A DNA stretch of 64,000 bases. It comes from Nostoc sp. B(2019). Its GTDB lineage: Bacteria > Cyanobacteriota > Cyanobacteriia > Cyanobacteriales > Nostocaceae. Location of the stretch: NCBI RefSeq assembly GCF_010091925.1, contig NZ_WVID01000013.1, forward strand, positions 62,001 through 126,000, given 5' to 3'. The translations under genes were made by a program, and so were the position numbers. The notes under the pieces are model-generated. The model ran no database searches and had not been told where the DNA came from. It worked only from the letters and a program-made list of their open reading frames with translations. The number at the start of each line of letters is the position of its first letter. The stretch's first letter is position 1. Positions 17,697 to 53,463 of the stretch are shown piece by piece.

Positions 17697-20024
17697 ATGG
17701 CTCGTTTATCAAGCCCTATTGAAAACTTAAAAAATCACTATAAAGTTGTGATTATTGGTTCCGGCTATGGCGGCGGGATTGCTGCTTCACGCCTAGCACG
17801 TGCTGGACAGCAGGTGTGTTTACTAGAGCGAGGTAAAGAATTTCAACCAGGTGAATACCCAAATAATGAAGTCAAAGCACTAGGTGAAATACAAGTAGAT
17901 TTGCCTGGTAAACGCGTTGGTGCATGCACAGGCTTGTACGATTTTCACGTTAATAAAGATATTAATGTATTCGTTGGTTGTGGGTTGGGTGGAACATCGC
18001 TCGTCAATGCCAATGTGTCATTACAAGCCGAACCCCGTGTTTTTACTGATAAACGCTGGCCCCAAGAATTGCGTGATGATGTCAACACATTATTGGCAGA
18101 AGGATATCGTCGTGCTGAGGAAATGCTCAAACCGACTTCTTATCCAGAAGATTTTCCGCCTTTGCCAAAATTACAAGCATTGGAAAAGTCTTCTAAATAC
18201 TTGAATGAAAATTTTTATCGACCACCCATCAACGTGACTTTTAAAGATGGGGTTAATCATGTCGGCGTAGAACAGAACAAATGCAATCTCTGCGGTGATT
18301 GTGTATCAGGTTGCAACAACAAGGCAAAAAATACTGTATTGATGAATTATTTGCCCGATGCTAAGAATCACGGTGCAGAAATTTATACGCAAGTAACCGT
18401 AAGGCATATTGAACGGCAGGATAATCGCTGGTTAGTTCACTTCCAATTGCTCAACGCCGGACAAGAGAAGTTTGACGCTCCGACAATGTTCGTCAGTGCC
18501 GATATAGTTATCCTAGCGGCTGGTACTCTCGGTTCTACAGAAATTTTGCTGCGATCGCAACAAGCAGGTTTAGCATTATCTAACCAGGTGGGACACAACT
18601 TTACAGGTAATGGCGATGTGCTGGCCTTCGGCTACAACACCGAGCAAAAAATTAACGGCGTTGGCTTTGGGAATCGTCCTCCGAGTGGACGGGAACCCGT
18701 CGGCCCCTGCATCAGCGGCATTATCGATATGCGCGAGCAACCACGCCTTGATAACGGCATGGTTATAGAAGAAGGCTCAATTCCTGGTGCACTAGCTCCC
18801 ATTCTGCCGAAAAGCCTTGCCGCCGCTAGCACAATACTAGGTAAAGATACTGATGAAGGTTTAGGCGATCGCCTCCAAGAAAGGCTACGAGAGGCGCAAA
18901 GTTTAACTCACGGTGCTTACACTGGTGCAGTCCACAACACCCAGACTTACCTAGTCATGACCCACGATGATGCAGCCGGGGAAATGTACTTAGAAAATGA
19001 CCGCCTCCGCATTCGCTGGGAAAATGTGGGTAAACAATCCATCTTTCAACGGGTAAACGATCGCCTCACAGAAGCGACTCGTCCCCTAGGTGGCACACAA
19101 ATTCCCAACCCAATTTGGACTAATTTCTTCGGTCACGACCTGATTACCGTCCATCCTCTAGGTGGCTGCATCCTCGCAGAAGATGCCGAACACGGCGTTG
19201 TCAACCACAAAGGGCAAGTATTTTCTAGCAACCAAGGTACAGCCGTTTACGAAAACCTGTATGTTTCCGATGGCTCAGTGATTCCCCGCACCTTGGGAGT
19301 AAATCCACTACTTACAATTTCTGCCATAGCCGAGCGTTGCTGTACCCTCATCGCCAAAGACCGGGGGTGGACAATTAACTACAACCTACCTTCAGCACCA
19401 ACTTCCCCAAGCGTCAACACGCCCGCCAAGCTGGGAATTCAGTTTACCGAAACCATGCGCGGTTACTTTTCCACTGAAGTCAAAGACGACTATCAACGTG
19501 CCGCTCAGCATGGTCAAAAAGACGGTTCCCCCCTGCAATTTACCCTGACGGTAATCGCCGATGATTTGGAACATTTACTCAACGACCCCACACATCCCGC
19601 CAAGATAGTTGGTACAGTAACAGCCCCCGCTCTCGCTACCGAACCGCTAACCGTCACCAATGGCGAGTTTAACCTGTTTGTCGTGGCACAAGACCAACAT
19701 GAAACACGACAGATGCTCTACCGTCTACCCATGACCACAGAAGCGGGACAGTCTTACTACTTAGAGGGCTATAAAGAACTTCACGATGACCCAGGGTTTG
19801 ATTTGTGGTCTGACACCACCACCCTTTATATCACCGTTTATGCTGGCGACAGTAACACTAATCCCGTATTAGGTAAGGGCATTCTGAAAATTCAGCCCGT
19901 AGATTTTGTCAAGCAAATGACCACCCTGAAAGTCACCAACGCCCCCAGCCCTACAGAACGCCTGCAAGCAATTGATCGCTTCAGTCGCTTCTTTGCTGGC
20001 ACATTATCTGAACTCTACCTCTAG
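17697..20024 (+). CDS. GMC-family FAD oxidoreductase (cholesterol-oxidase-like) with extra C-terminal domain
   Basis: A 775-aa flavoenzyme. The dinucleotide motif VVIIGSGYGGGIAASRLARA begins near residue 17. A four-cysteine motif C196-x2-C199-x2-C202-x3-C206 (CNLCGDCVSGC) followed by NNKAKNT lies mid-domain. The GMC C-terminal signature VHPLGGC and VSDGSVIPRTLGVNPLLTI complete the oxidase by about residue 560. Residues 578-775 form an added domain (IQFTETMRGYFS to FFAGTLSELY) that recurs at the N-terminus of the hydrolase encoded at 21481. The enzyme likely oxidises an alcohol on a bulky hydrophobic substrate (sterol-like oxidases are the nearest family), passing electrons to O2 or, through the Cys motif, to an acceptor. 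There is no signal peptide. It opens a plus-strand cluster. Confidence 0.85.
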   Translation: MARLSSPIENLKNHYKVVIIGSGYGGGIAASRLARAGQQVCLLERGKEFQPGEYPNNEVKALGEIQVDLPGKRVGACTGLYDFHVNKDINVFVGCGLGGTSLVNANVSLQAEPRVFTDKRWPQELRDDVNTLLAEGYRRAEEMLKPTSYPEDFPPLPKLQALEKSSKYLNENFYRPPINVTFKDGVNHVGVEQNKCNLCGDCVSGCNNKAKNTVLMNYLPDAKNHGAEIYTQVTVRHIERQDNRWLVHFQLLNAGQEKFDAPTMFVSADIVILAAGTLGSTEILLRSQQAGLALSNQVGHNFTGNGDVLAFGYNTEQKINGVGFGNRPPSGREPVGPCISGIIDMREQPRLDNGMVIEEGSIPGALAPILPKSLAAASTILGKDTDEGLGDRLQERLREAQSLTHGAYTGAVHNTQTYLVMTHDDAAGEMYLENDRLRIRWENVGKQSIFQRVNDRLTEATRPLGGTQIPNPIWTNFFGHDLITVHPLGGCILAEDAEHGVVNHKGQVFSSNQGTAVYENLYVSDGSVIPRTLGVNPLLTISAIAERCCTLIAKDRGWTINYNLPSAPTSPSVNTPAKLGIQFTETMRGYFSTEVKDDYQRAAQHGQKDGSPLQFTLTVIADDLEHLLNDPTHPAKIVGTVTAPALATEPLTVTNGEFNLFVVAQDQHETRQMLYRLPMTTEAGQSYYLEGYKELHDDPGFDLWSDTTTLYITVYAGDSNTNPVLGKGILKIQPVDFVKQMTTLKVTNAPSPTERLQAIDRFSRFFAGTLSELYL

Positions 20025-20062
20025 ATGGTTAGTTGTTAGCTGTTATTGACCCTTGACTCATT

Positions 20063-21127
20063 ATGCAAATCGACTTTCATCATGGTGTTACCTACGTTGC
20101 AGCGAGACTAGCGGGATTTGAGCATCCACCTGCTAGTATCATCGCTTACAGTGCTCAATACGTAGACGATGCGATAAATGACGGATTCATCCGGTTTGAT
20201 AACGGCGCATTGTTTCACCGCATCAGTTCTGCCCATAAAATGCTGGATTATCGCAACTTTGAGGAACTAGCAAATTACGGCGTTTGGATTCCGTTTCATT
20301 TTCTCCCAGGTAACGGCGGATTGCCAGCAAGTGAAGATCCTCAAGGAAGCTTTATCGACAAGCTAATTTGTCGCCCCAACAGCTACGTAGCTCAAGAGAT
20401 GGTGAGAGAATGTATAAATCGCCGCCATACTCCCTACGGACTGCATCGCCTGGGAATTACTGCTCATGTGTACGTTGACACTTGGGCACATCAGGGCTTT
20501 GCCGGAGTTAATCATCGGGTCAATGAAGCCAAACACCTGCTAGACGAACATGGTCAACCCGATCGCAACCTCATGGATCGGCTTCAGAATTACTTCGTCA
20601 GTGAAGCTTTACCCTTGGGGCATGGTTCTGTTCTCAGCCATCCTGACAAGCCATTTTTGCGCTGGGGTTACTTCAACGGCAGGGGCGAGCAAATTACCAG
20701 AAACAACCCCAAAGACTTTCTAGAAGCAGCAGACAATATGTGCAAAGTCATGCAGCGGTACATAGCGGGTAATCCTGATGCTGTTGTACCGGGATTGCCA
20801 CAATCAGATAAAACCTTAATTGCCCAGATGCTAGAGAGTATCACAGATAACAAAGGTAGCCTGCGTCATCAAAAGTGGTTGAGTGCGATCGCTCAGGGTA
20901 AGTTCAGCCTTGGCAAAGCAAATGTTACTTATATCCCCAAAGGTAAAGATTCGTGGAAACACTTAGCCCTTGGTACTGAAAACTCAGTTGACCGAGAAAA
21001 CGAAAGATTTCCCTATCACCCCAGCTTTTTGGCAAGTGATTGGAAACTATTTCACGATGCTTTGCAGTCCCATCACTTTTACATCATCCATGACTTACTA
21101 CCCAAATATGGAATCTGCGTAGCTTGA
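20063..21127 (+). CDS. DUF6765-like His-rich protein
   Basis: A 354-aa cytoplasmic protein. It begins MQIDFHHGVTYVAARLAGF, with AQYVDDA and many conserved-looking His/Asp residues (FHRISSAHKMLD, HRLGITAHVYVDTWAHQGF, FYIIHDLL), a pattern typical of metal-dependent hydrolase-like helical proteins. I place it in the DUF6765 type from this start and spacing. The enzymatic role is unknown; the HxD/H clusters would suit a phospholipase-C/S1-nuclease-like metal site, which is inference. It is 38 bp after the GMC oxidase and on the same strand, so it is part of the cluster. Confidence 0.7.
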   Translation: MQIDFHHGVTYVAARLAGFEHPPASIIAYSAQYVDDAINDGFIRFDNGALFHRISSAHKMLDYRNFEELANYGVWIPFHFLPGNGGLPASEDPQGSFIDKLICRPNSYVAQEMVRECINRRHTPYGLHRLGITAHVYVDTWAHQGFAGVNHRVNEAKHLLDEHGQPDRNLMDRLQNYFVSEALPLGHGSVLSHPDKPFLRWGYFNGRGEQITRNNPKDFLEAADNMCKVMQRYIAGNPDAVVPGLPQSDKTLIAQMLESITDNKGSLRHQKWLSAIAQGKFSLGKANVTYIPKGKDSWKHLALGTENSVDRENERFPYHPSFLASDWKLFHDALQSHHFYIIHDLLPKYGICVA

Positions 21128-21480
21128 AGAAGGCAGGAGTTCTGATAACTCTCTAAAACTCTATTTTTTTGGTGTTGCTGAGTAAAAAGATGAATTAGTC
21201 TCACGCAGAGGCGCAGCGAAAAGTTCTGTAGGCGGGTTTCCCGCCGTAGGAAACTTTTCAAGACAGAGTCGCAGAGAGTAAGAGTTTGAAATCCTAATTA
21301 AGCAACCCTATTCCTTTGCGTCCTTCTCTACGAGACGCTACGCGAAGGCAACCTTGGCGGTAGCCTGCGGCAAGCCGCTCCGCGTCTACGTTTTTTCATA
21401 ATTTTGCGGATACCCATCATTCAAGTTAATGATAATTTCTCAAAAATTCAGCAGCGATTTTTCAATAACCGAGGTGTTTC
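21128..21480. repeat. Intergenic interspersed repeats, 353 bp
   Basis: The spacer is mostly repeat DNA: a CACGCAGAGGCGCAGCG unit with its mirror AGAGTCGCAGAGAG around 21200-21285, then a second repeat with GAGACGCTACGCGAAGGC and CGCTCCGCGTCTACG at 21328-21390. The first resembles 26344-26475. The hydrolase ribosome-binding site (CGAGG) is at its end. No gene is seen. Confidence 0.6.
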
Positions 21481-23178
21481 ATGGCAACAACCACAACAGC
21501 AACAAACAAAGTCGGAATTCAGTTCACCGAAACCATGCGCGGCTACTTTTCTAAAGCAGTCCAAAACGACTATCAACGCGCAGCACAACAGGGTAAACAG
21601 AGTGGCTCCCAATTTGAATTTACCGTCACAGTCAGCTCCGACGATTTGGACAGGATGCTCACAGACGAAAGCCACAAAGCCAAAATTGTTGGTAGTGTAA
21701 TTGCTCCAGCTATATCGCCAGAACCTCTCAGCGTTACCGATGGAGAATTTAACTTATTCATCGTTGACCCAGACAGCGTAAATACGCGCCGCATGGTCTA
21801 CCGCATGAAAATGACTAGCGAAGAGGGTAAAGTTTATTACTTTGATGGCTTCAAAGTCGTACACAACGACCCAGGTTTTGACATTTGGGCAGACACCACC
21901 ACGCTATACATTACCGTGCATGACGGCGAGAGTCTCAACAGTCCAGTTCTAGGGCAAGGAATCTTAAAGATTCTGCCAGCCGATTTCCTTCACCAGATGA
22001 CTACGTTGCAAGTCACCAACGCCACCAGTCTCACGCAACAAGTAGAAGAGACTGCTCGTTTCGGTAGCTTTTTTGCTGGAGTCTTGTTTAACGTTTACGG
22101 TGGAATATTTGCTCCTTCAAAAGTATTCGATCCCGATGCACCACCCCGTCAAAAGCGTCCCCTGCGGATGTCAGCGCCCCAAGTTCATTTCTGCACAACT
22201 GATGATGGAGTTCAACTGCGATTGATTCGGTATCAAGGCGGCACAAAAGGCCCAGTCATGCTAGCACCAGGCTTTGGTACTTCCACCTTGGCATTTTCCA
22301 TCGATACCGTAGATACAAACCTGCCAGAGTTCTTGTATGCTCAAGGCTATGATGTCTGGCTATTCGATTATCGAGCCAGTGCCGATTTACCATCCGCCGC
22401 GGCCCAGTTTTCCGCCGATGAGATTGCCCTTTACGATTGGCCAGCAGCAGTTGAGCAAGTGCGTAGCATCACTGGGTCAGAAACAGTTCAAGTCGTGGGT
22501 CACTGCGTTGGCTCCATGTCTTTTCTGATGGCCATGCTAGCGGGTTTAAAAGGAGTGCGTTCCGCCGTTTGTTCCCAACTAACGACCCATCCTAGAGCCG
22601 CAACTCTGAACGAAATCAGAGCGGGTTTGCGTCTAGCTTCATTTCTGACAGTGCTAGGGGTAGAAACTCTCAACCCAGACTTTGATACCCATGCCGATTG
22701 GCAAGATAAACTTTACGACACGGTTTTAAGGTTGTATCCTACCAAAGAACCCTACAACAACCCTGTTGACCGCCGCATTCTCTTCATGTATGGAGAAGTG
22801 TACAAAATCGCCCAGTTGAATGAAGCTACCCACGATGCCATTCACGAGATATTTGGCCCAGGTAATCTTACCTTCTTCAGACATATATCTTTGATCCTGC
22901 GCCAGGGACACATTGTTAACAAAGATGGTAAAGATGTTTACTTGCCCCATCTAGAACGCTTAGCCATTCCTATTGCACTGATTCACGGCGCAGACAACGC
23001 CTTTTTCCTACCAGAGGGTTCGGAAATTACTTACAAGCTATTGTGCGATAAAAATGGTGGCGACTTGTATGTTCGCCATGTTATCCCTGATTATGCACAC
23101 ATGGACTGTTTCATGGGCAAAAACGCAGCCAAGGATATTTTCCCCACCGTCCTGGCGGAATTAGAGAAGTTCAATTAA
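21481..23178 (+). CDS. Alpha/beta hydrolase with Cys nucleophile and N-terminal domain shared with the GMC oxidase
   Basis: A 565-aa protein. Residues about 10-207 are homologous to the C-terminal domain of the GMC oxidase (both begin with GIQFTETMRGYFS and share DTTTLYITV and ILKI). Residues about 240-565 are an alpha/beta hydrolase. The nucleophile elbow reads G340-H-C342-V-G344, so the usual Ser is Cys, as in PHA synthases and dienelactone hydrolases. A candidate acid is Asp in LIHGADNAFF and the His is in DYAHMDCFMG, so a Cys-Asp-His triad is plausible. Possible reactions are acyl transfer, lactone cleavage or ester hydrolysis. In actinobacteria GMC oxidase and such hydrolases can be found as one long polypeptide (from memory), which supports a shared pathway. 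A CGAGG site precedes ATG 21481. Confidence 0.82.
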   Translation: MATTTTATNKVGIQFTETMRGYFSKAVQNDYQRAAQQGKQSGSQFEFTVTVSSDDLDRMLTDESHKAKIVGSVIAPAISPEPLSVTDGEFNLFIVDPDSVNTRRMVYRMKMTSEEGKVYYFDGFKVVHNDPGFDIWADTTTLYITVHDGESLNSPVLGQGILKILPADFLHQMTTLQVTNATSLTQQVEETARFGSFFAGVLFNVYGGIFAPSKVFDPDAPPRQKRPLRMSAPQVHFCTTDDGVQLRLIRYQGGTKGPVMLAPGFGTSTLAFSIDTVDTNLPEFLYAQGYDVWLFDYRASADLPSAAAQFSADEIALYDWPAAVEQVRSITGSETVQVVGHCVGSMSFLMAMLAGLKGVRSAVCSQLTTHPRAATLNEIRAGLRLASFLTVLGVETLNPDFDTHADWQDKLYDTVLRLYPTKEPYNNPVDRRILFMYGEVYKIAQLNEATHDAIHEIFGPGNLTFFRHISLILRQGHIVNKDGKDVYLPHLERLAIPIALIHGADNAFFLPEGSEITYKLLCDKNGGDLYVRHVIPDYAHMDCFMGKNAAKDIFPTVLAELEKFN

Positions 23179-23255
23179 TTGAGGTGGAAGTCAAGGGTCA
23201 AGAGTTATTATTCTTCCCCATTCCCCATTCCCCATTCCCCACAAGGTAATTGCAA

Positions 23256-24719
23256 ATGAGCGAAATTAATCAACTACTCACTGAACCTCTAGCATCCGAT
23301 ATCAAACAACATCCTGGTTTGAAAGAGCTATTTCGCTACCCGCTGATAGAAGCAATTGTTGAGCGACGCACTCGCAGATTAGCTCGTGGTGCTTCAGTCG
23401 TAGCAGGAGAACTCAGCCATACCAGCCAGAATCAGCCAGATCCTCTCAGTCCGTTGGAAGAGGCGATTTTGATTGTTGCTACGGGGATGACTGGCATCAC
23501 AACCCACGATGGCCCTCTGGATAAACCAGAAGGTGGCAAAGAATTGGGAACTCCCTTCCTTAACATTGTTGCTCGTTCTGGTAGTAGCGCTGATAATTCT
23601 CAAGCTACCTCCTTTTTCATGATCAACGATGAAGGCATCTGGCTAATCAAGCGACTCAAGGGACGGGAAGCGTTAGCAGCCCTCGGCGATTTACCTCCTA
23701 AATGGGAAGATTGGTCAGAAGAACACTGGCTGAAAGCTGCTGCTGCGGTCAAACATAAAATTAGCGATCGCCGTCTAGATTTCCCTCGAATTTATCCCTA
23801 CTACCTAGGTTGGAACAAGCAAATCTCTAACCTTCCGGGAACAACTCTCTTTTTCCCCGTTGTCGATTGCACCCGTCAATATATTAATGTTCTGCTCATC
23901 CTGCTTTCAGAACCAGACGGTCAAAAACCTTTGTTTGTTGATGACTGGCAGAAATTTCGACCCAAAAGTTTGGCAGACTGGGCAGCTTGGGCAGGAATGC
24001 ACTTGGGGCTGAGTCCCAAAATCCCTTATCAACCCATTGGTGGGATTGATCGAGTCAAGGGTGGTTTTGTCAACCCCAACAACACTGTTCCCTTGGGACT
24101 CGCCCATACCATGCGTACCGACCACGAATGTTTCTTTATTTTGCAAAACTTAATGCTCATTGGTCAAGCAATGGGTGTTGCTGGTTGGGTACATGGGTCA
24201 GTCTTCCAGCCGTTCATTTTAGAGCATAACCCAGCCAAGGAATGGTATGGTTTAGGATTTCGCATGGAACCGCCAACTCCTCAGAAAAGTATTTGGGCCC
24301 CGCCACCGGCTACTCAACCCAATCCAGTTGGTATCGATGGTGTGTTGGAAGGACTTTGCCCGCCCTACATTAGTTCTATGGATGAAGCAGTCGATCGCGT
24401 CATTGAAGAGAAGTACGGCAACCAGGGAGCCTATGGAGACAAGGATGTGTTTGCCCGTTCCTACCAAGCAAAATCAAGTGCCGAAGCCTTCCTGCGGGAT
24501 GCCGAACCCCATTCTAAAGAAGCAATTCAGTACACCAAAGATATCTGCAACTATATCTACGACACTTATGGTCGCTTTCCTGCCCACGTCGATGCCTTCT
24601 TTGTTCCTGGCATCTGGCTGCAATTTAGCCACATAGAGTTGGAGTACTACCAAAAGTACTACGATCCGGCTCTTTTCCGTCGCCAAGCCCAGCACGCTGA
24701 ACTTTGGGGCGATCGCTAA
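23256..24719 (+). CDS. Putative nitroreductase-fold protein
   Basis: A 487-aa protein of uncertain family. An early segment (PLIEAIVERRTRRLARG, then PLSPLEEAILIVATGMTGIT) and a later one (FFILQNLMLIGQAMGVAGWVHGS) follow the flavin-reductase/nitroreductase pattern, in which an RRS/T-x-R motif binds FMN phosphate and a QNLxLAAxxxGLG helix closes the fold. The long middle section and the C-terminal 150 residues have no counterpart I know. It may be an FMN- and NAD(P)H-dependent reductase or a cofactor-free relative. The start is ATG 23256; a TTG two codons earlier is also in frame. It lies 77 bp after the hydrolase, within the cluster, and is followed 32 bp later by the cytochrome c gene. Confidence 0.65.
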   Translation: MSEINQLLTEPLASDIKQHPGLKELFRYPLIEAIVERRTRRLARGASVVAGELSHTSQNQPDPLSPLEEAILIVATGMTGITTHDGPLDKPEGGKELGTPFLNIVARSGSSADNSQATSFFMINDEGIWLIKRLKGREALAALGDLPPKWEDWSEEHWLKAAAAVKHKISDRRLDFPRIYPYYLGWNKQISNLPGTTLFFPVVDCTRQYINVLLILLSEPDGQKPLFVDDWQKFRPKSLADWAAWAGMHLGLSPKIPYQPIGGIDRVKGGFVNPNNTVPLGLAHTMRTDHECFFILQNLMLIGQAMGVAGWVHGSVFQPFILEHNPAKEWYGLGFRMEPPTPQKSIWAPPPATQPNPVGIDGVLEGLCPPYISSMDEAVDRVIEEKYGNQGAYGDKDVFARSYQAKSSAEAFLRDAEPHSKEAIQYTKDICNYIYDTYGRFPAHVDAFFVPGIWLQFSHIELEYYQKYYDPALFRRQAQHAELWGDR

Positions 24720-24751
24720 ACACTGTCGCCAAATCTTTGTGAGAGGAAAGT

Positions 24752-26323
24752 ATGCTAAAAGTTATCAGGATTGCCGCCATCTCCCTCATCTCGATCTTGC
24801 TGGTAGCAACTTTTGGGTTTTTGTACATAGAATCAACTTGGGCAAAACCTCAATTTAGAACACCAAAAGAAGCATTTATCCACGGCAGTATCGGTACTGA
24901 GTTAGCGCCCTTACCAGTTTTCCAAGTCTTGCCCGATTTATTCCCCGATCAATTTCAGCCAGCAGGCAAAGAAGCAGGGGATTGGGTTGAGCAATTCGGA
25001 TTTATCCACGGAAAGCCGGAGGACAACGAAGGTTTGCCAGTGGGCTTTAGTGTTTCTAACTATCAACCTCAATCGGGAAATCCCTCACCTGTAAAGTTTG
25101 TGGGTTTTAGCTGTGCATTGTGTCACACATCCCATATTAGGAGGTTTCCCGGAGATGAAGCTGTGATAGTCACAGGCATGGGGAGTACTTCGTTAGACTT
25201 GTTTGCCTGGGTAGACGCCTTTAAAACTTCAATTCTTGATAAGAATCTGACTGTAGAAAACATTGCCAAAGCTTATGAAACTAAATACCAAAAACCCCTA
25301 GGAATTGTAGATAAAACTGTAATTGGTTTTTGGCTATCGACTGCCAGAGGTCAAGTACTAGCTTCACTTCCGAAGTGGGATGCTCCCTATAATGGCAAAG
25401 ACCTGAGAGACTCTAAATTATCACCCATTGGCCCGGCTCGAACGCAACCTTTTAAAGAGTTAGTCCATTTTGTGATGGATCGCCCCGCCGCCTCGGATAA
25501 ATCCTATTCCAAACTGCCGTCATTGTACGAGCAGGAAAATCGAGAGTGGGCGCAATATGACGGTAGCGTTAGAGATCGTCTCAGTCGCAGTGTGCTTGCG
25601 GCTGTGGCAGCAGGAGCCACCCCGAATAACTTAGTAGTGCCAGAAATTTCTCATAATGTCACCCAAGCCATTGAATATACGAGAGGTTTGCAAGGGCCTA
25701 AATATGCAGAGGTATTCAAAGACCAAGGCATCAAGCTTGATCCACAAAAAATAGAACGTGGTCATGCTGTCTTTCAGCAGAGTTGCGCTATCTGTCATGG
25801 CGATCGCAATTCTGAAAATGGCACTTGGGTGAAAGGTGAACTTCAGGGTTTAATTACGCCGATAGAAGAAATTCAAACTGATTCTGAACGGCTTAACTAT
25901 CGCTACTATCAAGAACTACCGGATGCTGTTGATGTTTTCTTTCCTGATAGCAATCCCTTGAAACCCAAACGAGAAAACATCAGACCAGGGCCTTTAGGAA
26001 ATACCAAAGGTTTCATTAACGCTCCCATAGAATCAGTTTTTGCCCGCGCTCCCTATTTGCACAATGGCAGTGTCTTGACCTTGGCAGAGTTAATTAATCT
26101 CAAACCTCGTCGAGAAATTTTTTATCGCGGAGACAATCTTTACGATCCAATTGATGTCGGCTTGGCTTCACCAACTGAACCTGATGATAAACATTACTTT
26201 AAATTAGATACCCATGTTCAGGGTAACTCTAATAAAGGGCATGATTATCCTTGGACTTATCAAGGAGCCGATTGGGATAAGGCAGCTTTGGAAGACTTAT
26301 TAGAGTATCTCAAGACACTTTAG
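24752..26323 (+). CDS. Membrane-anchored di-heme c-type cytochrome
   Basis: A 523-aa protein with an N-terminal membrane anchor (about 5-27) and two c-heme sites: C121-A-L-C124-H125 and C345-A-I-C348-H349. The stretch FARAPYLHNGSVLTLAELI near residue 430 is characteristic of the di-heme family that includes bacterial cytochrome c peroxidases and the rubber oxygenase RoxA. The wide heme spacing (224 residues) and the second-heme CAICHGDR environment also fit. It could accept electrons from the GMC oxidase or oxidise a substrate directly at the periplasmic or thylakoid-lumen side. GAGAGGAAAG lies 4 bp before the ATG. Whether it is an electron carrier, peroxidase or oxygenase cannot be decided. 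Confidence 0.82.
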   Translation: MLKVIRIAAISLISILLVATFGFLYIESTWAKPQFRTPKEAFIHGSIGTELAPLPVFQVLPDLFPDQFQPAGKEAGDWVEQFGFIHGKPEDNEGLPVGFSVSNYQPQSGNPSPVKFVGFSCALCHTSHIRRFPGDEAVIVTGMGSTSLDLFAWVDAFKTSILDKNLTVENIAKAYETKYQKPLGIVDKTVIGFWLSTARGQVLASLPKWDAPYNGKDLRDSKLSPIGPARTQPFKELVHFVMDRPAASDKSYSKLPSLYEQENREWAQYDGSVRDRLSRSVLAAVAAGATPNNLVVPEISHNVTQAIEYTRGLQGPKYAEVFKDQGIKLDPQKIERGHAVFQQSCAICHGDRNSENGTWVKGELQGLITPIEEIQTDSERLNYRYYQELPDAVDVFFPDSNPLKPKRENIRPGPLGNTKGFINAPIESVFARAPYLHNGSVLTLAELINLKPRREIFYRGDNLYDPIDVGLASPTEPDDKHYFKLDTHVQGNSNKGHDYPWTYQGADWDKAALEDLLEYLKTL

Positions 26324-26343
26324 AAGTTTAATCTCTGCGTCCT

Positions 26344-26475
26344 CTGCGTCTCTGTGGTTAAAAAGAATTTATTTAACCGCAGAGGCGCAGCGAAAAGTAT
26401 GAGCGCCGGCTTCCGGCGTTGGCGCAGCCCGCCGTAGGCATCATAACTTTTCAAGACAGAGAGCACAGAGTAAAG
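26344..26475. repeat. Interspersed repeat with 19-bp inverted arms
   Basis: CTGCGTCTCTGTGGTTAAA (26344-26362) pairs with TTTAACCGCAGAGGCGCAG (26372-26390) at 17 of 19 positions, with the rest G-U in RNA. A GCGCCGGCTTCCGGCG palindrome and a CTTTTCAAGACAGAG tail follow. The same tail is at 21250-21275, marking a dispersed repeat family. The hairpin lies 20 bp after the cytochrome stop and may attenuate transcription into the P450. Confidence 0.6.
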
Positions 26476-26531
26476 AGGTTGAAAAGGAATTTTTTGAATT
26501 TTCAAAAAACAATATTCACAGTTACATAAAA

Positions 26532-28433
26532 ATGGAAATAGTCAAATTTAAAAGAAATATTTCCTTAGCAGAATTTGCTAGTACTTTTTTTCCTTTTGGA
26601 ATTATTCTGATTGCTGCGCTTTTAGCGGCAGAGTTTAAACCAAATTTGAATTTACACCGTGCAATTTACTCATTTTGGGCTAGTACGGTGTTATTAATTC
26701 CGGCAATTTATTTATATATATTGCTAGGAAAATTAGCAAAAAAGAATAATTATTGGCTGCTGCTATGGACTTTTAGCTTTTTAGCTTATTTAGTTCATTT
26801 GTTTTATGAGGTGTTTGGAATATATGGCGGCATTCAAGATTTTGCAGCGGATGGGAGTGCGATCGCAGTAAGTAAATTAATCTTAGCTTTCTGGTGGGGA
26901 TTAGATATAAGTTTGGCACGGTTTACTGATTCTTCGGCAACCTGGATACAAATCCAACGAACTGGGGTGCATATTTACGTTGGTTTGAGCTTTTTGGTTG
27001 CCAATTTGATTTTACAAGCGGGATTTGCTCGCACTTTAGGGATTACCTTAGCTATCTCTATTTTGGTAGCTTTACTGGTGCGGCACAACACCCGCAATGG
27101 TCAAGATAATGAAAACCTACCACCTGGTTCCTACGGTTTACCGTTGCTGGGTGAGACGATTCCATTAGCTTTGGATATTCATAGCTTTTACCGCAAGCGT
27201 GTTAAAAAATATGGCCCAGTCTTTAAAACTCATTTATTTGGCAAACCTGTCATTGCTTTTAACGGCCCGGAGGCTTTTACTTTCTTTCTAAATCAGGAAT
27301 ATTTCACCCGTGAAAATGCCAGTCCACACCCGATAAAAGAACTACTAGACTGGGACACCTTACCACTGTTGGATGGTGACGAACATCGTCGCCGAAAACG
27401 GATTATTCTCCAGGCTTTTACACCAGAGGCTTTCGATAAATACATACCCAGCATTGAACAAACAGCGGCTTACTACCTGAAACGCTGGGAAAAACTGGGT
27501 AGCTTTACCTGGTTAACAGAATACCGTAAGCTGAGCGCATCTTTAACCAATGCGTTATTTATTGGGAAAGAGCCAGGCCCGACAAGTGAAACTGTGGGAG
27601 AAATCACAGACACTTTTATCAAAGGTTTCTCCTCAGTACCGATTAACTTGGGTTTTAATGCTTATGGACGGGCGCTCAAGAATCGTGATTGGTTACTCAA
27701 TTACATCGACCAAGCGATTGGGCAGCACCGTCAGCAACCCCGCCAGGATCTACTGGGATTGCTGTTATCAGCCCGCAGTGAGGATGGTAGCACTCTCACC
27801 GATGTACAGTTGCGCCGTGAGGTCATGCATTTGTTCTTTGCGGCTTATTCCGGTTTTTATGTTGCTCTCACGCTGCTTTCTCTGACCCTAGCCCAACATC
27901 CAGAGATTGCTGCACGTGCTAGGCAAGAAGTCAAGCAATATGTGCCTGATGGGCCACTGGATATGGCACGGTTGCAAAAGTTGGTGTATCTAGAGCAAAT
28001 TACCAAAGAAATCCGCCGCTTTTATCCCATTAATGCTGCTACTTTTTTTGGTCAGGTAAAGAAAGACTGTGAGTTTCAAAATTTCCACATTCCGAAAGGT
28101 TGGGGCGCAGTGGCAGGAATCCATACTACTATGCATATCCCCCAGGTTTTTTCTGAACCGCAGAGTTTTAAGCCCTGTCGCTTTGCTCCAGAAAACTTTG
28201 CAGCCTTACCGGAAAACAGCTATGTACCCCAAGGCGGTGGGCCTAGAGATGGACATCGTTGTGCAGGCGAAGACTTGATTACTGTGTTGCTCAAGATAAT
28301 GGGGGTACATTTGCTGCGTCGATATAGTTGGGAACTGCTACCACAGAATCTTGAATTGAACCAAGACTTGTTTCCTACCCCACGTGATGGGTTAAAGGTG
28401 CGGTTTGGGATTGATAGGCAGACAGTTACTTAG
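26532..28433 (+). CDS. Cytochrome P450 with N-terminal polytopic membrane domain; CYP152-like heme loop
   Basis: A 633-aa protein. Residues 1-190 hold about five TM helices (for example FGIILIAALLAAEF, ASTVLLIPAIYLYILLG, VGLSFLVANLILQAGF). From about 195 the P450 begins: PPGSYGLPLLGETIPLA, ExxR in KEIRRFYP, and a heme loop with Cys577 in PQGGGPRDGHRCAGE. This extended loop is the form seen in CYP152 fatty-acid peroxygenases. The I-helix reads F435-F-A-A-Y-S-G-F-Y443: it lacks the acid-alcohol pair of oxygenases and also the Arg-Pro pair that CYP152 enzymes use to hold the carboxylate (Phe436-Ala437 here). Peroxide-driven or isomerase chemistry on a membrane-dissolved substrate is likely. Its stop is 11 bp before the next hydrolase start. 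Confidence 0.88.
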   Translation: MEIVKFKRNISLAEFASTFFPFGIILIAALLAAEFKPNLNLHRAIYSFWASTVLLIPAIYLYILLGKLAKKNNYWLLLWTFSFLAYLVHLFYEVFGIYGGIQDFAADGSAIAVSKLILAFWWGLDISLARFTDSSATWIQIQRTGVHIYVGLSFLVANLILQAGFARTLGITLAISILVALLVRHNTRNGQDNENLPPGSYGLPLLGETIPLALDIHSFYRKRVKKYGPVFKTHLFGKPVIAFNGPEAFTFFLNQEYFTRENASPHPIKELLDWDTLPLLDGDEHRRRKRIILQAFTPEAFDKYIPSIEQTAAYYLKRWEKLGSFTWLTEYRKLSASLTNALFIGKEPGPTSETVGEITDTFIKGFSSVPINLGFNAYGRALKNRDWLLNYIDQAIGQHRQQPRQDLLGLLLSARSEDGSTLTDVQLRREVMHLFFAAYSGFYVALTLLSLTLAQHPEIAARARQEVKQYVPDGPLDMARLQKLVYLEQITKEIRRFYPINAATFFGQVKKDCEFQNFHIPKGWGAVAGIHTTMHIPQVFSEPQSFKPCRFAPENFAALPENSYVPQGGGPRDGHRCAGEDLITVLLKIMGVHLLRRYSWELLPQNLELNQDLFPTPRDGLKVRFGIDRQTVT

Positions 28434-28444
28434 AGGAGTTGCTA

Positions 28445-29374
28445 GTGAATATCTTTATCTGGTTAGTTGTCATCATTTTAGTAGTAGCACTTTTGGCGAT
28501 CGCAAATTCGGCGCGGTTGGTAATTGCACCAAAACGGCAGCGGCTATGGAGTAACCCCAAGCAAGAAATAGGGTTGGGCTATGAGGATGTGGAGTTTCCA
28601 GCTCAGGATGGAATACGCCTCAAAGGCTGGTTTATCCCGGCAACACAAATGCCAGCGGCAACTGCAATCATTGTACACGGCTGGCCCTGGAACCGAATGG
28701 GTACTAAAGCCAACGACCCCCTCGGAGACTTACCTGGTAGTAAGCCGATTAACCTACTACCATTGACCAAAGCATTGCACGAGAGTAACTATAACGTGCT
28801 GATGTTTGACCTCAGCAATTTTGGTGAGAGCGACGCCAGGATTCCAGTTACCTATGGCTTGCTAGAAAGGCGTGATCTGCTGGGAGCCATAAGCTACCTT
28901 AAAAGCCGAAACGAAGTAGATCCAAATCGCATCGTTACCGTCGGGTTTTCTATGGGAGGTAACACAGTAATATATACTCTTCCTGAAACCACTGACATTA
29001 AAGCTGCCGTTGTCGTGCAGCCCAATACTTCATCGGTATTTGGGGAACGCTATCGCGCCGATAAATTTGGCCCTTTGGGTAAACTCCTTAACCTACCAAT
29101 CGAACTTCTCTATTGCTTATCGGGCGCTCCTAAAACTGCCTATCTCCAGCCAGTTTACGCCGCTAGCGGTGCTCGTAATACCCCTGTGCTTTATGTGCAA
29201 GGTACTGGTGACAAATGGGGTAGCGTTGCTGATGTAGCCAATATGGTAGCAGCCACACCCAACGCCGTAGAACCCCTTTATCCTGAGACTGACCACCGCT
29301 TTGGTGCGTATCAATACGCAGTGGATAACCCAGACAAGATACTCACTTTCTTCGAGAAGTACTTGGGTAGGTAG
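28445..29374 (+). CDS. Membrane-anchored alpha/beta hydrolase
   Basis: A 309-aa hydrolase with one N-terminal TM (about 2-22) and the Ser-type elbow G-F-S-M-G in TVGFSMGGNTV. The oxyanion/HG segment is IIVHGWPWNRMG, and the terminal His is in TDHRFG. It resembles the BEM46/FrsA-like 'extended' alpha/beta hydrolases anchored to the inner face of a membrane. Translation most likely begins at GTG 28445, which has GAGGAG 6 bp upstream; a TTG at 28439 is in frame but sits on the ribosome-binding site. Only 11 bp separate it from the P450, so the two are co-translated and may act in sequence. The substrate (ester or amide) is unknown. Confidence 0.85.
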   Translation: MNIFIWLVVIILVVALLAIANSARLVIAPKRQRLWSNPKQEIGLGYEDVEFPAQDGIRLKGWFIPATQMPAATAIIVHGWPWNRMGTKANDPLGDLPGSKPINLLPLTKALHESNYNVLMFDLSNFGESDARIPVTYGLLERRDLLGAISYLKSRNEVDPNRIVTVGFSMGGNTVIYTLPETTDIKAAVVVQPNTSSVFGERYRADKFGPLGKLLNLPIELLYCLSGAPKTAYLQPVYAASGARNTPVLYVQGTGDKWGSVADVANMVAATPNAVEPLYPETDHRFGAYQYAVDNPDKILTFFEKYLGR

Positions 29375-29478
29375 GAGAAATACAAAAGAGTGCTGAGTAA
29401 TGAGTGCTGAGTTATTATTTTTCCCCTGCCCCCTGCTCCCTGCTCCCCTGCCTTCAACTGTCATACCAGGGTATAAAA

Positions 29479-30309
29479 ATGCGTATTCACGCTGTTCAAA
29501 GTGGACTTGTAACCATCAAAACCTGTCAGTGCTATAGCAAAGGTCATGGTGCTATGCGTCTGGTAAACACGATTCTTGACCGCAATTGGACTGACCCTTT
29601 ACCCATTTATAGCTGGGCTATTGAACATCCTGAAGGGATTATTTTAATTGATACGGGTGAAACTGCGCGCACTTTGGAACCAGGCTACTTCCCTTGGTGG
29701 AACCCTTATTTTCAGCTGAGTATCAAACCATGTTTGCAACCTGAAGACGAAGTGAATTTTCGGTTACGAGCTTTGGGTATAGAACCAAATGATGTACGTT
29801 GGGTAATTCTCACTCATCTGCACACAGACCATATAGGCGGTTTGCACCATTTTCCCAACGCCGAAATTATTATTTCGCGTAGAGAGTATGAACTAACTGG
29901 TGGTTGGCGCGGACAGCTAAGAGGTTATTTAACTCAGCGTTGGCCAGAGTGGTTAAACCCTCACTTAATCGAGTATGAGCCTCAGCCAATCGGGCCTTTT
30001 TTGGAGAGTTATCCGCTGACAAAAGCTGGAGATGTCAGCTTAATTCCTACAGAAGGTCATACTGGGGGGCATTTATCAGTTTTGGTACAAGCTGACGGAC
30101 TATCCTTATTTTTTGCTGGTGATGCTTCTTACACTCAGCAACTCATGTTGGATCAGATTGTTGACGGTGTTGCTCAAGATGAAGAGAAATCTTGCCAGAC
30201 ATTGAAGCTGATTTTGCAGTACATACAAGAATTTCCTACAGTCTATCTTCCGAGTCACGATCCTGATGCTGCTCATAGGTTAGCAGAGCGAACCATTGTT
30301 TCAGTCTAA
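29479..30309 (+). CDS. Metallo-beta-lactamase-fold hydrolase, lactonase-like
   Basis: A 276-aa MBL protein with the dinuclear zinc motif H113-L-H115-T-D117-H118, a later His in EGHTGGHLS, bridging Asp in FFAGDASY and the final His in LPSHDPDAAHR. The order and spacing match the N-acyl-homoserine-lactonase branch (AiiA/AttM type), whose members open lactone rings. Here it lies 104 bp after a hydrolase in an oxidative cluster, so the lactone may be an internal intermediate rather than a quorum signal. The start is ATG 29479 with CCAGGG upstream; the longer frame to 29404 runs through repeat-like CCCTGCTCCC sequence and is not used. Its stop is 32 bp before the GH1 start. Confidence 0.85.
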   Translation: MRIHAVQSGLVTIKTCQCYSKGHGAMRLVNTILDRNWTDPLPIYSWAIEHPEGIILIDTGETARTLEPGYFPWWNPYFQLSIKPCLQPEDEVNFRLRALGIEPNDVRWVILTHLHTDHIGGLHHFPNAEIIISRREYELTGGWRGQLRGYLTQRWPEWLNPHLIEYEPQPIGPFLESYPLTKAGDVSLIPTEGHTGGHLSVLVQADGLSLFFAGDASYTQQLMLDQIVDGVAQDEEKSCQTLKLILQYIQEFPTVYLPSHDPDAAHRLAERTIVSV

Positions 30310-30341
30310 TTACTTTGATGATTTCTAAAGGAGTTATTTCT

Positions 30342-32579
30342 ATGTCAGACGCACAAAAAAAGCCACTTACCGACAAAGCTCGCTTCTCACCTTTACCAGA
30401 CTCATTCATGTTTGGTGTTGCCACAGCTGACCACCAATGCGAAGCTTACGACTCCCGCTATGAAGACATTCGAGATGTGTGGGAGCGGCGTCGCGCCTTG
30501 ACAATTAGGGGTCAAGCAACTGACTTTTGGCATCGCTACGCCGAAGATATAGCCTTAGCCAAGTCTCTTGGTTGTAAGATGTTCCGCTTTTCTATCGCCT
30601 GGTCGCGGGTGGAACCTAAACCTGGTGAGTTTAATGAGGAAGCTTTTGAACACTATCGCCAAGTGATTGAAACTATCCGATCGCATGGTATGGAACCCAT
30701 GGCCACTCTGCACCATTTCACTCATCCCATCCATGTTGAAGAACGGGGCGGTTTAATTTCCCCAGATTTTCCATCCATTTTCGCCACCTATGCCAAAGAA
30801 GTTGCTCAACGTTTGGGCCCCTTAGTGCGCTACTGGATTAGCTTTAACGAACCCAGTCAACTCATTTATGGCTATGTTAAACCTTGGTGGGAGAGAGCTT
30901 ACTTTATGCCACCCGGTTTAGATCGAGGCGCAACGATCGCCGAGCAAATGACCGCAGTCCGCAAGCTGATGCGAAATTTGTTCATAGCACACACTAACGC
31001 TAGAACTATTCTCAAGCAAGTCAACCCAGATGCTCAAGTGGGAGCAAATCCCATGTTGTTGGGTCTACCCTTATGGTTGCAAAAACTGGTAGATCGCAAC
31101 GTCACCAATCTCCGCCGTCCCGAAGACTTCGTTGCTCAAGGAAAACGTTTCAGTGAGCGGGCTTTGCTAGAAAAAGGGCAAGTTGATGTAGTGATTGCTA
31201 ACTTGACTGTTACCCAAGAGCGACAACAGCAAGTGGCTTTCTCCGAGGCATACTATCAAGCAGGTCAATTTTTACTGGTGAAGTCAGCAAGTCCAATTCA
31301 GCAACCCAAAGATGTTGATGGCAAACCTGTAGCAGTAGTTAAAAGCACTACCGCCGAATCTACCGTATATCAACTATTTCCCGCAGCCAATATCCAAGTA
31401 GTAGAAAATCATGCTGATGCTCTCAGAGCGTTGGACTACGAGCAAATCAGCGCCATCCTCGCTGATGACACCATCTTATTAGGAATCGCCCAGCAGTTTC
31501 CGGGGCAATATCGGCTGATTGGTAAAAATGGTGAAGGGCTAACTGAAGAAAATTATGCTGCTGCTGTAGTTAAAGGCGATCGCGAATTACTTAATGTTGT
31601 AGATATAGCAGTGCGAAGCTTTAAAGAATCCGGTGCTTGGGCTGCCAGTTACGCCCGCTATTTCCCCGGTCAACCAGTCCCAGAACCTCCCCGTATAGGC
31701 AGACGCTCAACTCTAGCTGACATCACACATCAAGGAGAGGGACAACCCTCAGCACCTAACAAGCCCCTGCCTAAACCTGTACTGCGTCGGATTCAAGACC
31801 GGGGTTATTTAATTGTTGCCGTTAAAGATAACGTTCCTGGGTTTGGTTATCGTGACCCAGAAACGGGTGAATTTAGCGGCTTAGAAATCGATCTAGCTCG
31901 TGCCTTAGCAAAGCAAATTTTCGGTGATCCTAGCAAAGTGAAATTTCAAGCCGTTGCGACTCAGGAACGTCTGCCTGTGCTGCGCTCTGTTGTGCGAATC
32001 TTTGACCCATTAATGAAGATTTTTAGCGCCCTTTCAACATCGTTGACAAGTAACTGGTGGCATCTCGGCATGGCTGGAAAACTGCCAACATTCCTCTGTC
32101 CCCAAGAGTGCGTCGGACAGCAAGATTTTGTCGGATTTGACTACTATTGGGGCATCAGCAATTTACGACTTAACCGCATCCAGCAGTTGATGGATGCAGC
32201 TTTCGGGCGTTTCGGTAATGCGCCAGTTTGGTCTGGGGTACTGTACGATATGCTCAAGTTCCACAGCCAATTATTCCCCGGTAAGGAGATTTTAATTGTT
32301 GAGAACGGCTGTGTTGATGTAGCTGATAAGGTCGTCAAGCGCGAGGACTACATTCGCCAGCATATCCAGCAGGTGCAGCGTGCTCGTCAAGATGGTGTGA
32401 ACGTGGTGGGTTATGTCTCTTGGTGCATTACCTCTAACCGTGAATGGGGTCTGAAGTTCGGCCCAGATAGCGATTTTGGACTTTACCACGTTGGTCTAGA
32501 TAATGACCCAGAATTAAAGCGCCAGCCAACCCTCGCGGCAGCTGCATATCGAGAGATTATTAAAAAAGGTGGTGTTTGA
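30342..32579 (+). CDS. GH1 glycosidase interrupted by a permuted solute-binding-protein (SBP_bac_3) module
   Basis: A 745-aa protein. Residues 14-270 and about 550-745 together make a family 1 glycoside hydrolase. Acid/base Glu170 is in WISFNEP, and nucleophile Glu654 is in LIVENG. Residues about 273-549 are foreign to GH1. First comes the C-terminal lobe of a periplasmic amino-acid-type binding protein (KGQVDVVIANLTVTQER, VAFSEAYYQAGQ), then a linker, then the N-terminal lobe (RIQDRGYLIVAVKDNVPGFG, EIDLARALAKQIFG) ending at QERLPVLRS, exactly where the C-lobe segment would continue. The insert therefore equals one unit of a tandem SBP array in shifted register. There is no signal peptide, so it is probably cytoplasmic, where an SBP would be a ligand sensor. 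AAAGGAG precedes ATG 30342 by 8 bp. Beta-glucosidase-like activity is inferred. Confidence 0.85.
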   Translation: MSDAQKKPLTDKARFSPLPDSFMFGVATADHQCEAYDSRYEDIRDVWERRRALTIRGQATDFWHRYAEDIALAKSLGCKMFRFSIAWSRVEPKPGEFNEEAFEHYRQVIETIRSHGMEPMATLHHFTHPIHVEERGGLISPDFPSIFATYAKEVAQRLGPLVRYWISFNEPSQLIYGYVKPWWERAYFMPPGLDRGATIAEQMTAVRKLMRNLFIAHTNARTILKQVNPDAQVGANPMLLGLPLWLQKLVDRNVTNLRRPEDFVAQGKRFSERALLEKGQVDVVIANLTVTQERQQQVAFSEAYYQAGQFLLVKSASPIQQPKDVDGKPVAVVKSTTAESTVYQLFPAANIQVVENHADALRALDYEQISAILADDTILLGIAQQFPGQYRLIGKNGEGLTEENYAAAVVKGDRELLNVVDIAVRSFKESGAWAASYARYFPGQPVPEPPRIGRRSTLADITHQGEGQPSAPNKPLPKPVLRRIQDRGYLIVAVKDNVPGFGYRDPETGEFSGLEIDLARALAKQIFGDPSKVKFQAVATQERLPVLRSVVRIFDPLMKIFSALSTSLTSNWWHLGMAGKLPTFLCPQECVGQQDFVGFDYYWGISNLRLNRIQQLMDAAFGRFGNAPVWSGVLYDMLKFHSQLFPGKEILIVENGCVDVADKVVKREDYIRQHIQQVQRARQDGVNVVGYVSWCITSNREWGLKFGPDSDFGLYHVGLDNDPELKRQPTLAAAAYREIIKKGGV

Positions 32580-34704: not shown

Positions 34705-34767
34705 TTTGGGTGGCGATTGGCTATCCTTTGTGTTATTATAGCAATAGGTCGAATCAAAGGAAACAAA

Positions 34768-35955
34768 ATGAGAACATCCTATCAATACCGCTTAAAGCCT
34801 ACTAAAGAACAAGCTGAAATTATCGACAATACACTAGATATGCTGCGTTGCCAGTACAATTATCAACTTGCTCAAAGGTTTGAATGGTTTGAGATGAACC
34901 GATGTCCAATAGATAGATGTTCTCTAATTGTTTGTCATATTCCAGAGTTGAAAGACAAACCCAATCGTTTTAGGCAGCAAGCCTCTTTAACTCAACTGAA
35001 GAAAAATCGAAGTTGGTACAAAGGCATTCATTCTCAAGTGTTGCAAGAAGTACCGAAAAAAGTTGAAATAGCTTTTGACCGTTGGCTCAAAGGTGATACT
35101 AACGGCAAGCGTAGCGGTAAGCCAAGATTCAAAGCTAAAGGGCAATACAAGACTTTTACCTACCCACAATTCAAGCGGGAGAATTTTCAAAACGATAAAA
35201 TAACACTCTCAAAGATTGGCACAATCAAAGTAATCATTCATCGTCAAATACCAAATGGATTCGATATCAAAACCGTATCTGTTACTAAAAAGTCAGATGG
35301 TTATTATGTGATTTTGAGCTTAGAAGATAAGACAGTACCAACAACCAAGCCAAATTTTGATTCCAGAAATATCGTTGGGATTGATGTAGGATTGATTGAT
35401 TTTATTGTCACATCAGAAGATGAAAGAATAGCAGCACCTAAGTTTTTACGCAAGGCAGAACATAGATTAAAATCCGCACAACGACGAGTTTCTCGTAGAA
35501 AAAAAGGCTCTAATCGCCGCAAAAAAGCAATTAAAAGGCTGGGTATGCAACATAAAAAAGTTGCCGATACTCGCAAAGATTTTCATTTCAAAACTGCTAA
35601 ATTACTGCTTAATAAGTATGATGTTATTGCAGTAGAAAAACTGAATATCAAAGGACTAGCTAAATCAAGATTGGCTAAAAGTGTAAATGATGCCGGATGG
35701 AGTCAGTTTATTTCAATACTTAGTGTCAAAGCCGAAAATGCTGGACTAAAAGTAATAGCTATAAATCCAAATGGTACTAGCCAAGAATGTTCTAGCTGTG
35801 GTCAAAAAGTGAAGAAATTGCTATCTCAAAGGATGCATAATTGCCCTAACTGTAAAGCAAGTTTGTGTCGAGATTTGAATGCAGCAATAAATATAAAGAA
35901 TCGTGGGACGCACGATCTAAAAGCTCAGATCATGTCTTCAATGAAGAGTCTCTGA
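34768..35955 (+). CDS. tnpB: TnpB (IS605 OrfB) RNA-guided nuclease
   Basis: A 395-aa TnpB, apparently intact. The N-terminal HTH_OrfB_IS605 domain starts MRTSYQYRLKPTKEQ. The RuvC-like catalytic residues are all present: Asp in VGIDVGLIDF, Glu in AVEKLNIKGLAKS and Asp in CRDLNAAINI. The zinc ribbon is C-x2-C (CSSCG) with C-x2-C (CPNCK). TnpB enzymes cut DNA guided by an omega-RNA made from the element's right end. It starts at ATG 34768 after AAAGGAAAC; the frame to 34717 upstream would cross the promoter region. Host-like codon use suggests long residence. Confidence 0.93.
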   Translation: MRTSYQYRLKPTKEQAEIIDNTLDMLRCQYNYQLAQRFEWFEMNRCPIDRCSLIVCHIPELKDKPNRFRQQASLTQLKKNRSWYKGIHSQVLQEVPKKVEIAFDRWLKGDTNGKRSGKPRFKAKGQYKTFTYPQFKRENFQNDKITLSKIGTIKVIIHRQIPNGFDIKTVSVTKKSDGYYVILSLEDKTVPTTKPNFDSRNIVGIDVGLIDFIVTSEDERIAAPKFLRKAEHRLKSAQRRVSRRKKGSNRRKKAIKRLGMQHKKVADTRKDFHFKTAKLLLNKYDVIAVEKLNIKGLAKSRLAKSVNDAGWSQFISILSVKAENAGLKVIAINPNGTSQECSSCGQKVKKLLSQRMHNCPNCKASLCRDLNAAINIKNRGTHDLKAQIMSSMKSL

Positions 35956-53137: not shown

Positions 53138-53274
53138 AGACACTAAGACACTAAGAAAAATACATTACACCTTGAAAGGGTTACGTGACTATCGGCTATT
53201 CTATATTTGGTCAAGTCTAATTCAATTAGCAAAATGCCTAATTACTTTCTCAAACCCCAGTTTGCTTACTTAAA

Positions 53275-53463
53275 ATGCCATTTGACTTACTCATTTTGGT
53301 GTTTTTTGCAAGTAAAATCAGCTTTTACTTTCTCAAAATGCCATTTGACTTACTCATTTTAGTGTTTTCCGCAAGCAAAAAGGCATATTGCTTACTCAAA
53401 ATGCCATTTGACTTACTCATTTTGGTGTTTTCCGCAAGCAAAATCAGCTTTTACTTTCTCAAA
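53275..53463 (+). repeat. Three tandem copies of a 63-bp unit
   Basis: Units begin ATGCCATTTGACTTACTCAT at 53275, 53338 and 53401, each 63 bp long. Partial degenerate copies flank them from about 53225 to 53490. Since 63 is divisible by three, all six frames repeat with a 21-residue period, and one forward frame reads MPFDLLILVFxASK per unit. There is no ribosome-binding site. The sequence is more likely a structural or regulatory array than a gene. Confidence 0.85.

Follow-up and report, generated by a model that had tools for sequence, protein, structure and literature searches.

The gene at positions 30342 to 32579 (forward strand) of the window, the whole 64,000 nucleotide stretch of Nostoc sp. 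B(2019) contig NZ_WVID01000013.1 that was analysed, encodes a 745 amino acid family 1 glycoside hydrolase (GH1) into which, by sequence comparison, a complete amino-acid solute-binding protein (SBP, SBP_bac_3 type) is inserted in circularly permuted form. Its open frame (30315/30342-32579) is uninterrupted and constitutes one gene of 745 codons, and direct reading finds a ribosome-binding-like AAAGGAG at 30327 to 30333, 8 nt 5' of the ATG at 30342; this and the parts of the gene given below are on the forward strand. The Pfam families Glyco_hydro_1 (PF00232; E 2.8e-57, 194.6 bits against a cutoff of 22.6) and SBP_bac_3 (PF00497; E 9.9e-26, 90.5 bits against a cutoff of 26.4) each match in two stretches, with GH1 on either flank and SBP_bac_3 between. 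The first GH1 part, residues 15-271 (30384 to 31154; Pfam and conservation), contains Q32, R82, H125, N169 and E170 and the stretch that enters the insert, and the second, residues 550-745 (31989 to 32576; alignment and conservation), contains D600, Y602, E654, W694, E701 and W702. The 278 amino acid insert, residues 272-549 (31155 to 31988), thus lies between E170 (NEP motif, 30849 to 30851) and E654 (ENG motif, 32301 to 32303), which we take to be the GH1 acid/base and nucleophile, respectively. Pfam, alignment to a PDB chain and a rotation scan (see below) agree in this, and bear out the original prediction of a GH1 with a circularly permuted SBP between its catalytic glutamates.

The order of the parts within the insert is that of a permuted protein. 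Against PDB chain 5eyf, insert residues 4-173 align with chain residues 73-239 and insert residues 208-277 with chain residues 6-75, so the order is permuted, the ends overlap by about 3 residues and the core of the chain is covered; a free SBP of the same genome gives the same crossover (insert 213-276 with 46-108, and insert 9-122 with 112-223). In the rotation scan the insert was rotated stepwise and each version was compared with 25 free SBPs, all of them preselected as matches of the insert (two free loci of the same genome, one a non-matching frame and the other a duplicate, were left out). In native order the mean best score against these preselected SBPs was 67.3 bits and 18 of the 25 split into two or more pieces, while rotation at residue 478 gave a mean of 103.2 bits over a mean length of 219 residues with none split; rotation at the internal linker turned the match into a single colinear one in all 25, and the best rotations tried (452, 472 and 478) all lie within the linker that connects what used to be the ends. 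Residues 275-443 (31164 to 31670), which would stand second in a normal SBP, are placed by alignment to 5eyf and 6h1u and by mapping of the GlnH pocket (see below); they comprise the rest of the lobe 1 strand region, the whole of lobe 2 and the return to lobe 1, and include the pocket positions N287, T289, R294, H357 and D375. A linker (residues 444-477, 31671 to 31772; reading of aligned rows) connects the original C terminus to the original N terminus and leads to the part with which a normal SBP begins, residues 478-549 (31773 to 31988; PDB alignment and GlnH mapping), which includes R543. The permutation cut falls after RLPVLRS and before LLEKGQVDVV, and with the overlap of about 3 residues the outer ends of the insert are indeed the point where a normal SBP would run on, as had been predicted. 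The lobes had also been described as standing in reverse order; the permutation holds, but it is not a simple lobe swap, for the cut lies inside lobe 1, just ahead of the strand VDVVIA, and splits lobe 1 while leaving lobe 2 whole.

At least 57 homologous loci were found, in cyanobacteria (mostly Nostocales), Chloroflexota, Eremiobacterota, Verrucomicrobiota, one titled Deinococcales and one titled Proteobacteria (L030, G102), the last in a genome that was placed in the phylum of a Chloroflexota genome; some of the loci are fragments and some have no insert. Among 100 relatives a strong match is present in 13, nearly the whole protein in 12, and these include all five genomes of the window's genus in the sample. 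With the window protein as query (E 1e-60), 4 of 386 cyanobacterial genomes match, and with an insert-free query (E 1e-50) the GH1 family with or without the insert is found in 9 of 400 Chloroflexota, 52 of 149 Eremiobacterota and 3 of 240 Verrucomicrobiota genomes, centre genomes being included in all of these counts. Plasmid records gave 1509 matches, none covering 80% of the query; among the matches listed, ten in number, seven are annotated as GH1 and three have no annotated feature. The same GH1-SBP architecture occurs in many genomes. Cyanobacteria, Chloroflexota, Eremiobacterota and Verrucomicrobiota share one insert junction, which is retained in independent genomes with as little as about 42% identity, and the insert aligns to SBPs and not to a GH1 loop. 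In Westiellopsis prolifica (L028:4968-7189) the gene is split over two overlapping frames within the insert, by a frameshift or a sequence error. Ten pairs among five genus-level sequences gave dN/dS values of 0.08-0.14 for the insert and 0.01-0.09 for the GH1 parts; by this measure the insert is under purifying selection.

From 85 family and outgroup open reading frames, 76 rows (72 family and 4 outgroup) were used for alignment. Nine were left out: six that are contained in kept rows, the partial Verrucomicrobiota sequences L047 and L048, in which the R294 equivalent can be made out by eye, and the damaged L062, whose NEP stretch is unreadable. Taking the length between two GH1 landmarks as the measure, the insert is full in 57 of the 72 family rows among the matches listed, short in 6 and absent in 9, proportions that are not natural frequencies. 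Groups were assigned by hand, "Eremiobacterota-type" denoting full rows placed in no other group. By reading, the linker carries a motif R-x-[TS]-[LVI]-x-x-[ILV] (RSTLADI in the window protein) in cyanobacterial and many Eremiobacterota-type rows, and it was not seen in the Chloroflexota rows; we note that this motif at 31671-31772 recurs although drift would be expected for a plain linker.

In the enzyme part, Q32, R82, H125, N169, E170, E654, W694, E701 and W702 are kept in all 72 family rows, in accord with the prediction that both glutamates survive, and Y602 in 71 (the other has a gap); presumably Q32, R82, H125, N169, Y602, W694, E701 and W702 have their usual roles as GH1 active-site residues. 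They are retained in the full-insert, short-insert and insert-free classes alike. NEP and ENG motifs and these active-site residues are thus shared with the GH1 beta-glucosidases (PF00232, TIGR03356), from which the family differs at positions 600 and 126 (see below) and the window protein in its 278 amino acid insert and in its score on TIGR03356, the GH1 family beta-glucosidase equivalog model, where it reaches 192.4 bits against a cutoff of 478.5 (the insert-free homologue L054 reaches 192.6). None of the 22 NCBIfam models listed for the 745 amino acid protein attains its cutoff. Position 600 is D in 71 of the 72 family rows (one gap) and N in the four ordinary GH1 rows, and position 126 is F, N or Y in 70 of 72 and W in the four ordinary ones; because of these two differences the family is probably a GH1 subfamily with its own substrate. 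By reading, no signal peptide was seen at the N terminus of the protein, and a Pfam scan of 14 neighbouring genes in the window, one of them without any match, found no transporter family; we infer that the protein is cytoplasmic. Secretion by way of the long N-terminal extensions of some of the open reading frames was considered and rejected, as the extensions are upstream stop-to-stop frame; the Eremiobacterota rows inspected have an in-frame ATG or similar start shortly ahead of the GH1 start.

The trees, which are quick searches with SH-aLRT support only, bear on how the insert was gained. In the tree of GH1 columns made without the Verrucomicrobiota row L146, the first rows to branch off are three that have no insert (support 91), and the remaining insert-free rows are unresolved among the insert-bearers; with L146 the free GH1 tree needs more changes of insert state. 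A tree in which all insert-bearers are held together beats the free search when L146 is included and is not rejected (p 0.586; p 0.482 without L146). When the inserts are put into canonical order, all 57 fall on one side of a branch against the 25 free SBPs with a support of 97.6 (94.8 with 30 inserts). According to these trees an insert-free GH1 probably received the SBP once, perhaps with losses afterwards, and a single gain without loss is possible, since the tree with the insert-bearers together is not rejected. At the insert site six of the nine insert-free homologues have a loop of about 10-20 residues, and the three deepest-branching have a longer, poorly alignable stretch. The converse event, a GH1 inserted into an SBP, was discarded, as natural insert-free GH1 relatives have both outer ends in common. 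The insert has seven matches in its own genome besides itself, the best with 52% identity over 65 amino acids, and neither an array nor a near-identical copy was seen there, so the original idea that it came from one unit of a tandem SBP array found no backing in this genome; room for a double insert is present in none of the 85 family and outgroup open reading frames. The short forms (L117, L120, L121, L127, L132 and L138, all from the Eremiobacterota search) have one permuted lobe left: the entire lobe 2 is absent, cut at the hinge, so that for example FSKPY is followed almost straight by YAVAVALG, and the GH1 tree has such forms at two or more positions.

The closest PDB sequences to the insert are the Enterococcus faecium glutamate-binding protein 5eyf and Mycobacterium tuberculosis GlnH (6h1u); with these SBP_bac_3 proteins it shares a nearly full-length match by sequence and amino-acid pocket residues, and it differs from them in being circularly permuted, inside an enzyme and without a visible signal peptide. 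In the GlnH report, Arg169, Asp250 and Ser164 contact the alpha groups of the ligand, and Arg147, Thr162 and Trp232, with Lys161 through water, its acidic side chain (PMC6069109). By alignment the former three map to R294, D375 and T289 of the window protein and the latter to R543, N287, H357 and, for Lys161, A286. Of the 57 full inserts, 55 have R294, 53 have D375 and 56 have R543, which upholds the predicted amino-acid type of pocket. The six direct-contact positions have a mean conservation of 0.73 against 0.49 for the whole insert (1.6% of random sixes are as high), and for R294, D375 and R543, a trio chosen after the alignment had been viewed, the mean is 0.96 (0.06% of random triples). 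The pattern fits an amino-acid ligand, and for the cyanobacterial and Chloroflexota forms it suggests an acidic one. Cyanobacterial rows have T (13 of 21) or N (7 of 21) at position 287 and Y (13 of 21) or H (5 of 21) at 357. Apart from R543, the contacts to the side chain differ in the Eremiobacterota-type rows, with Q at the N287 position in 27 of 28 and a variable residue at H357; the Lys161 equivalent is A in 55 of the 57 full inserts, and R294 is lost in two of the three Verrucomicrobiota rows. Among the NCBIfam SBP models the lysine/arginine/ornithine model scores best (121.6 bits) and aspartate/glutamate reaches 98.4, all far under cutoff. Of the three free SBPs in this genome that allow the comparison, two also have arginine at the R543 position.

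By alignment through the insert-free L054, the insert lies between positions that match 225 and 279 of the reconstructed ancestral GH1 6z1h. From GH1 topology together with this alignment we place the site on the catalytic face of the barrel, in the loop region that follows strand 5. In six of the insert-free relatives a short loop connects similar flanks, so the tip of a hairpin already present in the host is the probable seat of the SBP, and this hairpin looks like a two-helix lid of the barrel. In 6z1h residues 227-334 are flexible, and bound heme raises activity several-fold, indirectly and without access to the active site, according to the report on that enzyme (PMC7810902). We lean slightly towards reading the window protein as a cytoplasmic GH1 beta-glycosidase whose activity would depend on a small ligand bound in the permuted SBP, an acidic amino acid of the glutamate/aspartate type being the likeliest candidate. 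Binding would close the Venus flytrap, the closing or opening would pull on the lid hairpin, and movement of the lid would alter how accessible or how rigid the active site is between E170 and E654; ligand could switch the enzyme on or off, both directions being compatible with the arrangement. Circular permutation would make such a graft possible, since it brings the new ends next to each other within lobe 1, a short way along the chain from the pocket positions R543 and N287-R294 (R543 is six residues ahead of the exit junction, and N287 and R294 are insert positions 16 and 23). The wider proposal, that this is a natural family of cytoplasmic amino-acid-gated glycosidases in which a flytrap was grafted by circular permutation onto the lid of a TIM-barrel active site, arose probably once in an insert-free GH1, and was later deprived of its switch in some Eremiobacterota by the cutting out of one lobe, we put forward more tentatively, at somewhat short of an even chance.

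Several observations stand against gating. Six of the 63 insert-bearing rows have no lobe 2 and still keep the GH1 active site, and in these the flytrap cannot close because lobe 2 is lost. Glutamate is usually abundant in the cytoplasm, and a tight glutamate sensor would for that reason always be full. The best score on the lysine/arginine/ornithine model counts against an acidic ligand, and the changed side-chain contacts in the Eremiobacterota-type rows and the A at the Lys161 site also stand against this reading. The loss of R294 in two Verrucomicrobiota rows, the arginines kept in the single-lobe forms and the presence of the R543 arginine in free SBPs speak against a pure ligand reading. 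The most serious competitor, which we nevertheless consider unlikely, is that the SBP serves as a structural or oligomerisation module, its fold kept and ligand binding irrelevant to catalysis. The hinge deletions, at two or more positions in the tree, speak for such a module, as do the faster evolution of the insert relative to the GH1 parts and the degraded pocket of the two Verrucomicrobiota rows; the single-lobe forms moreover retain R543 in six of six and R294 in five of six, so those arginines may have a structural role. Against it stands the retention across several phyla of R294, R543 and, in lobe 2, D375 in nearly all full inserts.

A different role for an intact pocket, and a distinctly improbable one in our judgment, is substrate capture, in which the SBP would bind an amino acid or similar aglycone and present the glycoside to the GH1 site, acting as an enlarged aglycone subsite and not as a regulator. 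The amino-acid type of the pocket and the location of the insert in a loop region on the catalytic face (GH1 topology and alignment) agree with this, but the family is not known to have a substrate with such an aglycone, no gene that neighbours it across phyla was found to point to one, and the insert-free members have identical active-site residues. An assembly chimera or recent gene accident, for which nothing was found to speak, has next to no probability: the same junction is present in independent genomes of several phyla down to about 42% identity, and for this reason a chimera was ruled out, while the separation of the 57 inserts from the 25 free SBPs and the purifying selection on the insert also speak against it. 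Control of the glycosidase by a ligand of the SBP, to which we give slightly better than even odds, may link amino-acid status with glycoside breakdown in cyanobacteria.

Engineers make SBP-enzyme switches through random insertion and permutation, and by analogy the GH1-SBP protein resembles a natural counterpart of these. The lytic transglycosylase MltF, which appears among the PDB and NCBIfam matches of the insert, has an unpermuted regulatory domain. This natural SBP-like domain is reported to activate the glycan-cleaving enzyme when engaged by muropeptides; MltF differs from the window protein in that the domain is N-terminal and not inserted, the enzyme belongs to the cell envelope, the ligand is a muropeptide and the catalytic family is unrelated (PMC10746161). 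The engineered xylanase-XBP also joins an SBP and a glycosidase by domain insertion and has xylose-stimulated activity, but it is man-made and has the enzyme inserted into the SBP, the reverse of the window protein (PMC4896006). TpMglB-2 occurs naturally as a circularly permuted SBP and retains ligand binding, and differs in being a type I sugar SBP and a transporter lipoprotein, not within an enzyme (PMC4990184). The heme-binding 6z1h shows allosteric activation of a GH1, as proposed here, and flexibility in the same barrel region as the insert, but is a reconstructed protein with a small cofactor and no added domain; its authors state that to their knowledge allosteric modulation was unreported for modern glycosidases (PMC7810902). 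No description of the GH1-SBP architecture was found in a literature search, subscription papers and preprints being largely outside it. The parts are known; what seems to be new is their combination, a glycosidase that naturally contains a permuted SBP and has relatives both without the insert and with one lobe of it. Host without insert, candidate switch and single-lobe form make up a natural series for comparison, in which the way a TIM barrel comes under the control of a ligand domain could be tested directly.

Besides GH1 itself no neighbour cluster is widely common across phyla. Among 57 loci a metallo-beta-lactamase-fold gene lies near GH1 in 8 and a P450 gene in 7, all of them cyanobacterial. 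In the window, positions 17697-30309 hold a run of genes on one strand that encode a GMC oxidoreductase, a DUF6765 protein, alpha/beta hydrolases, a RoxA-like protein, a P450 with a long N-terminal part and a metallo-beta-lactamase fold protein, and parts of this run recur beside the GH1 gene in several cyanobacteria; close to the insert-free Chloroflexota locus L054 there is a distant match that is GMC-like (29%). A transposase-like gene at 34717-35955, downstream of the GH1 gene, looks by reading like TnpB, and a gene with 60% identity to it is found near the GH1 gene of locus L019. A repeat in three copies with 63-nt spacing occupies 53262-53463.
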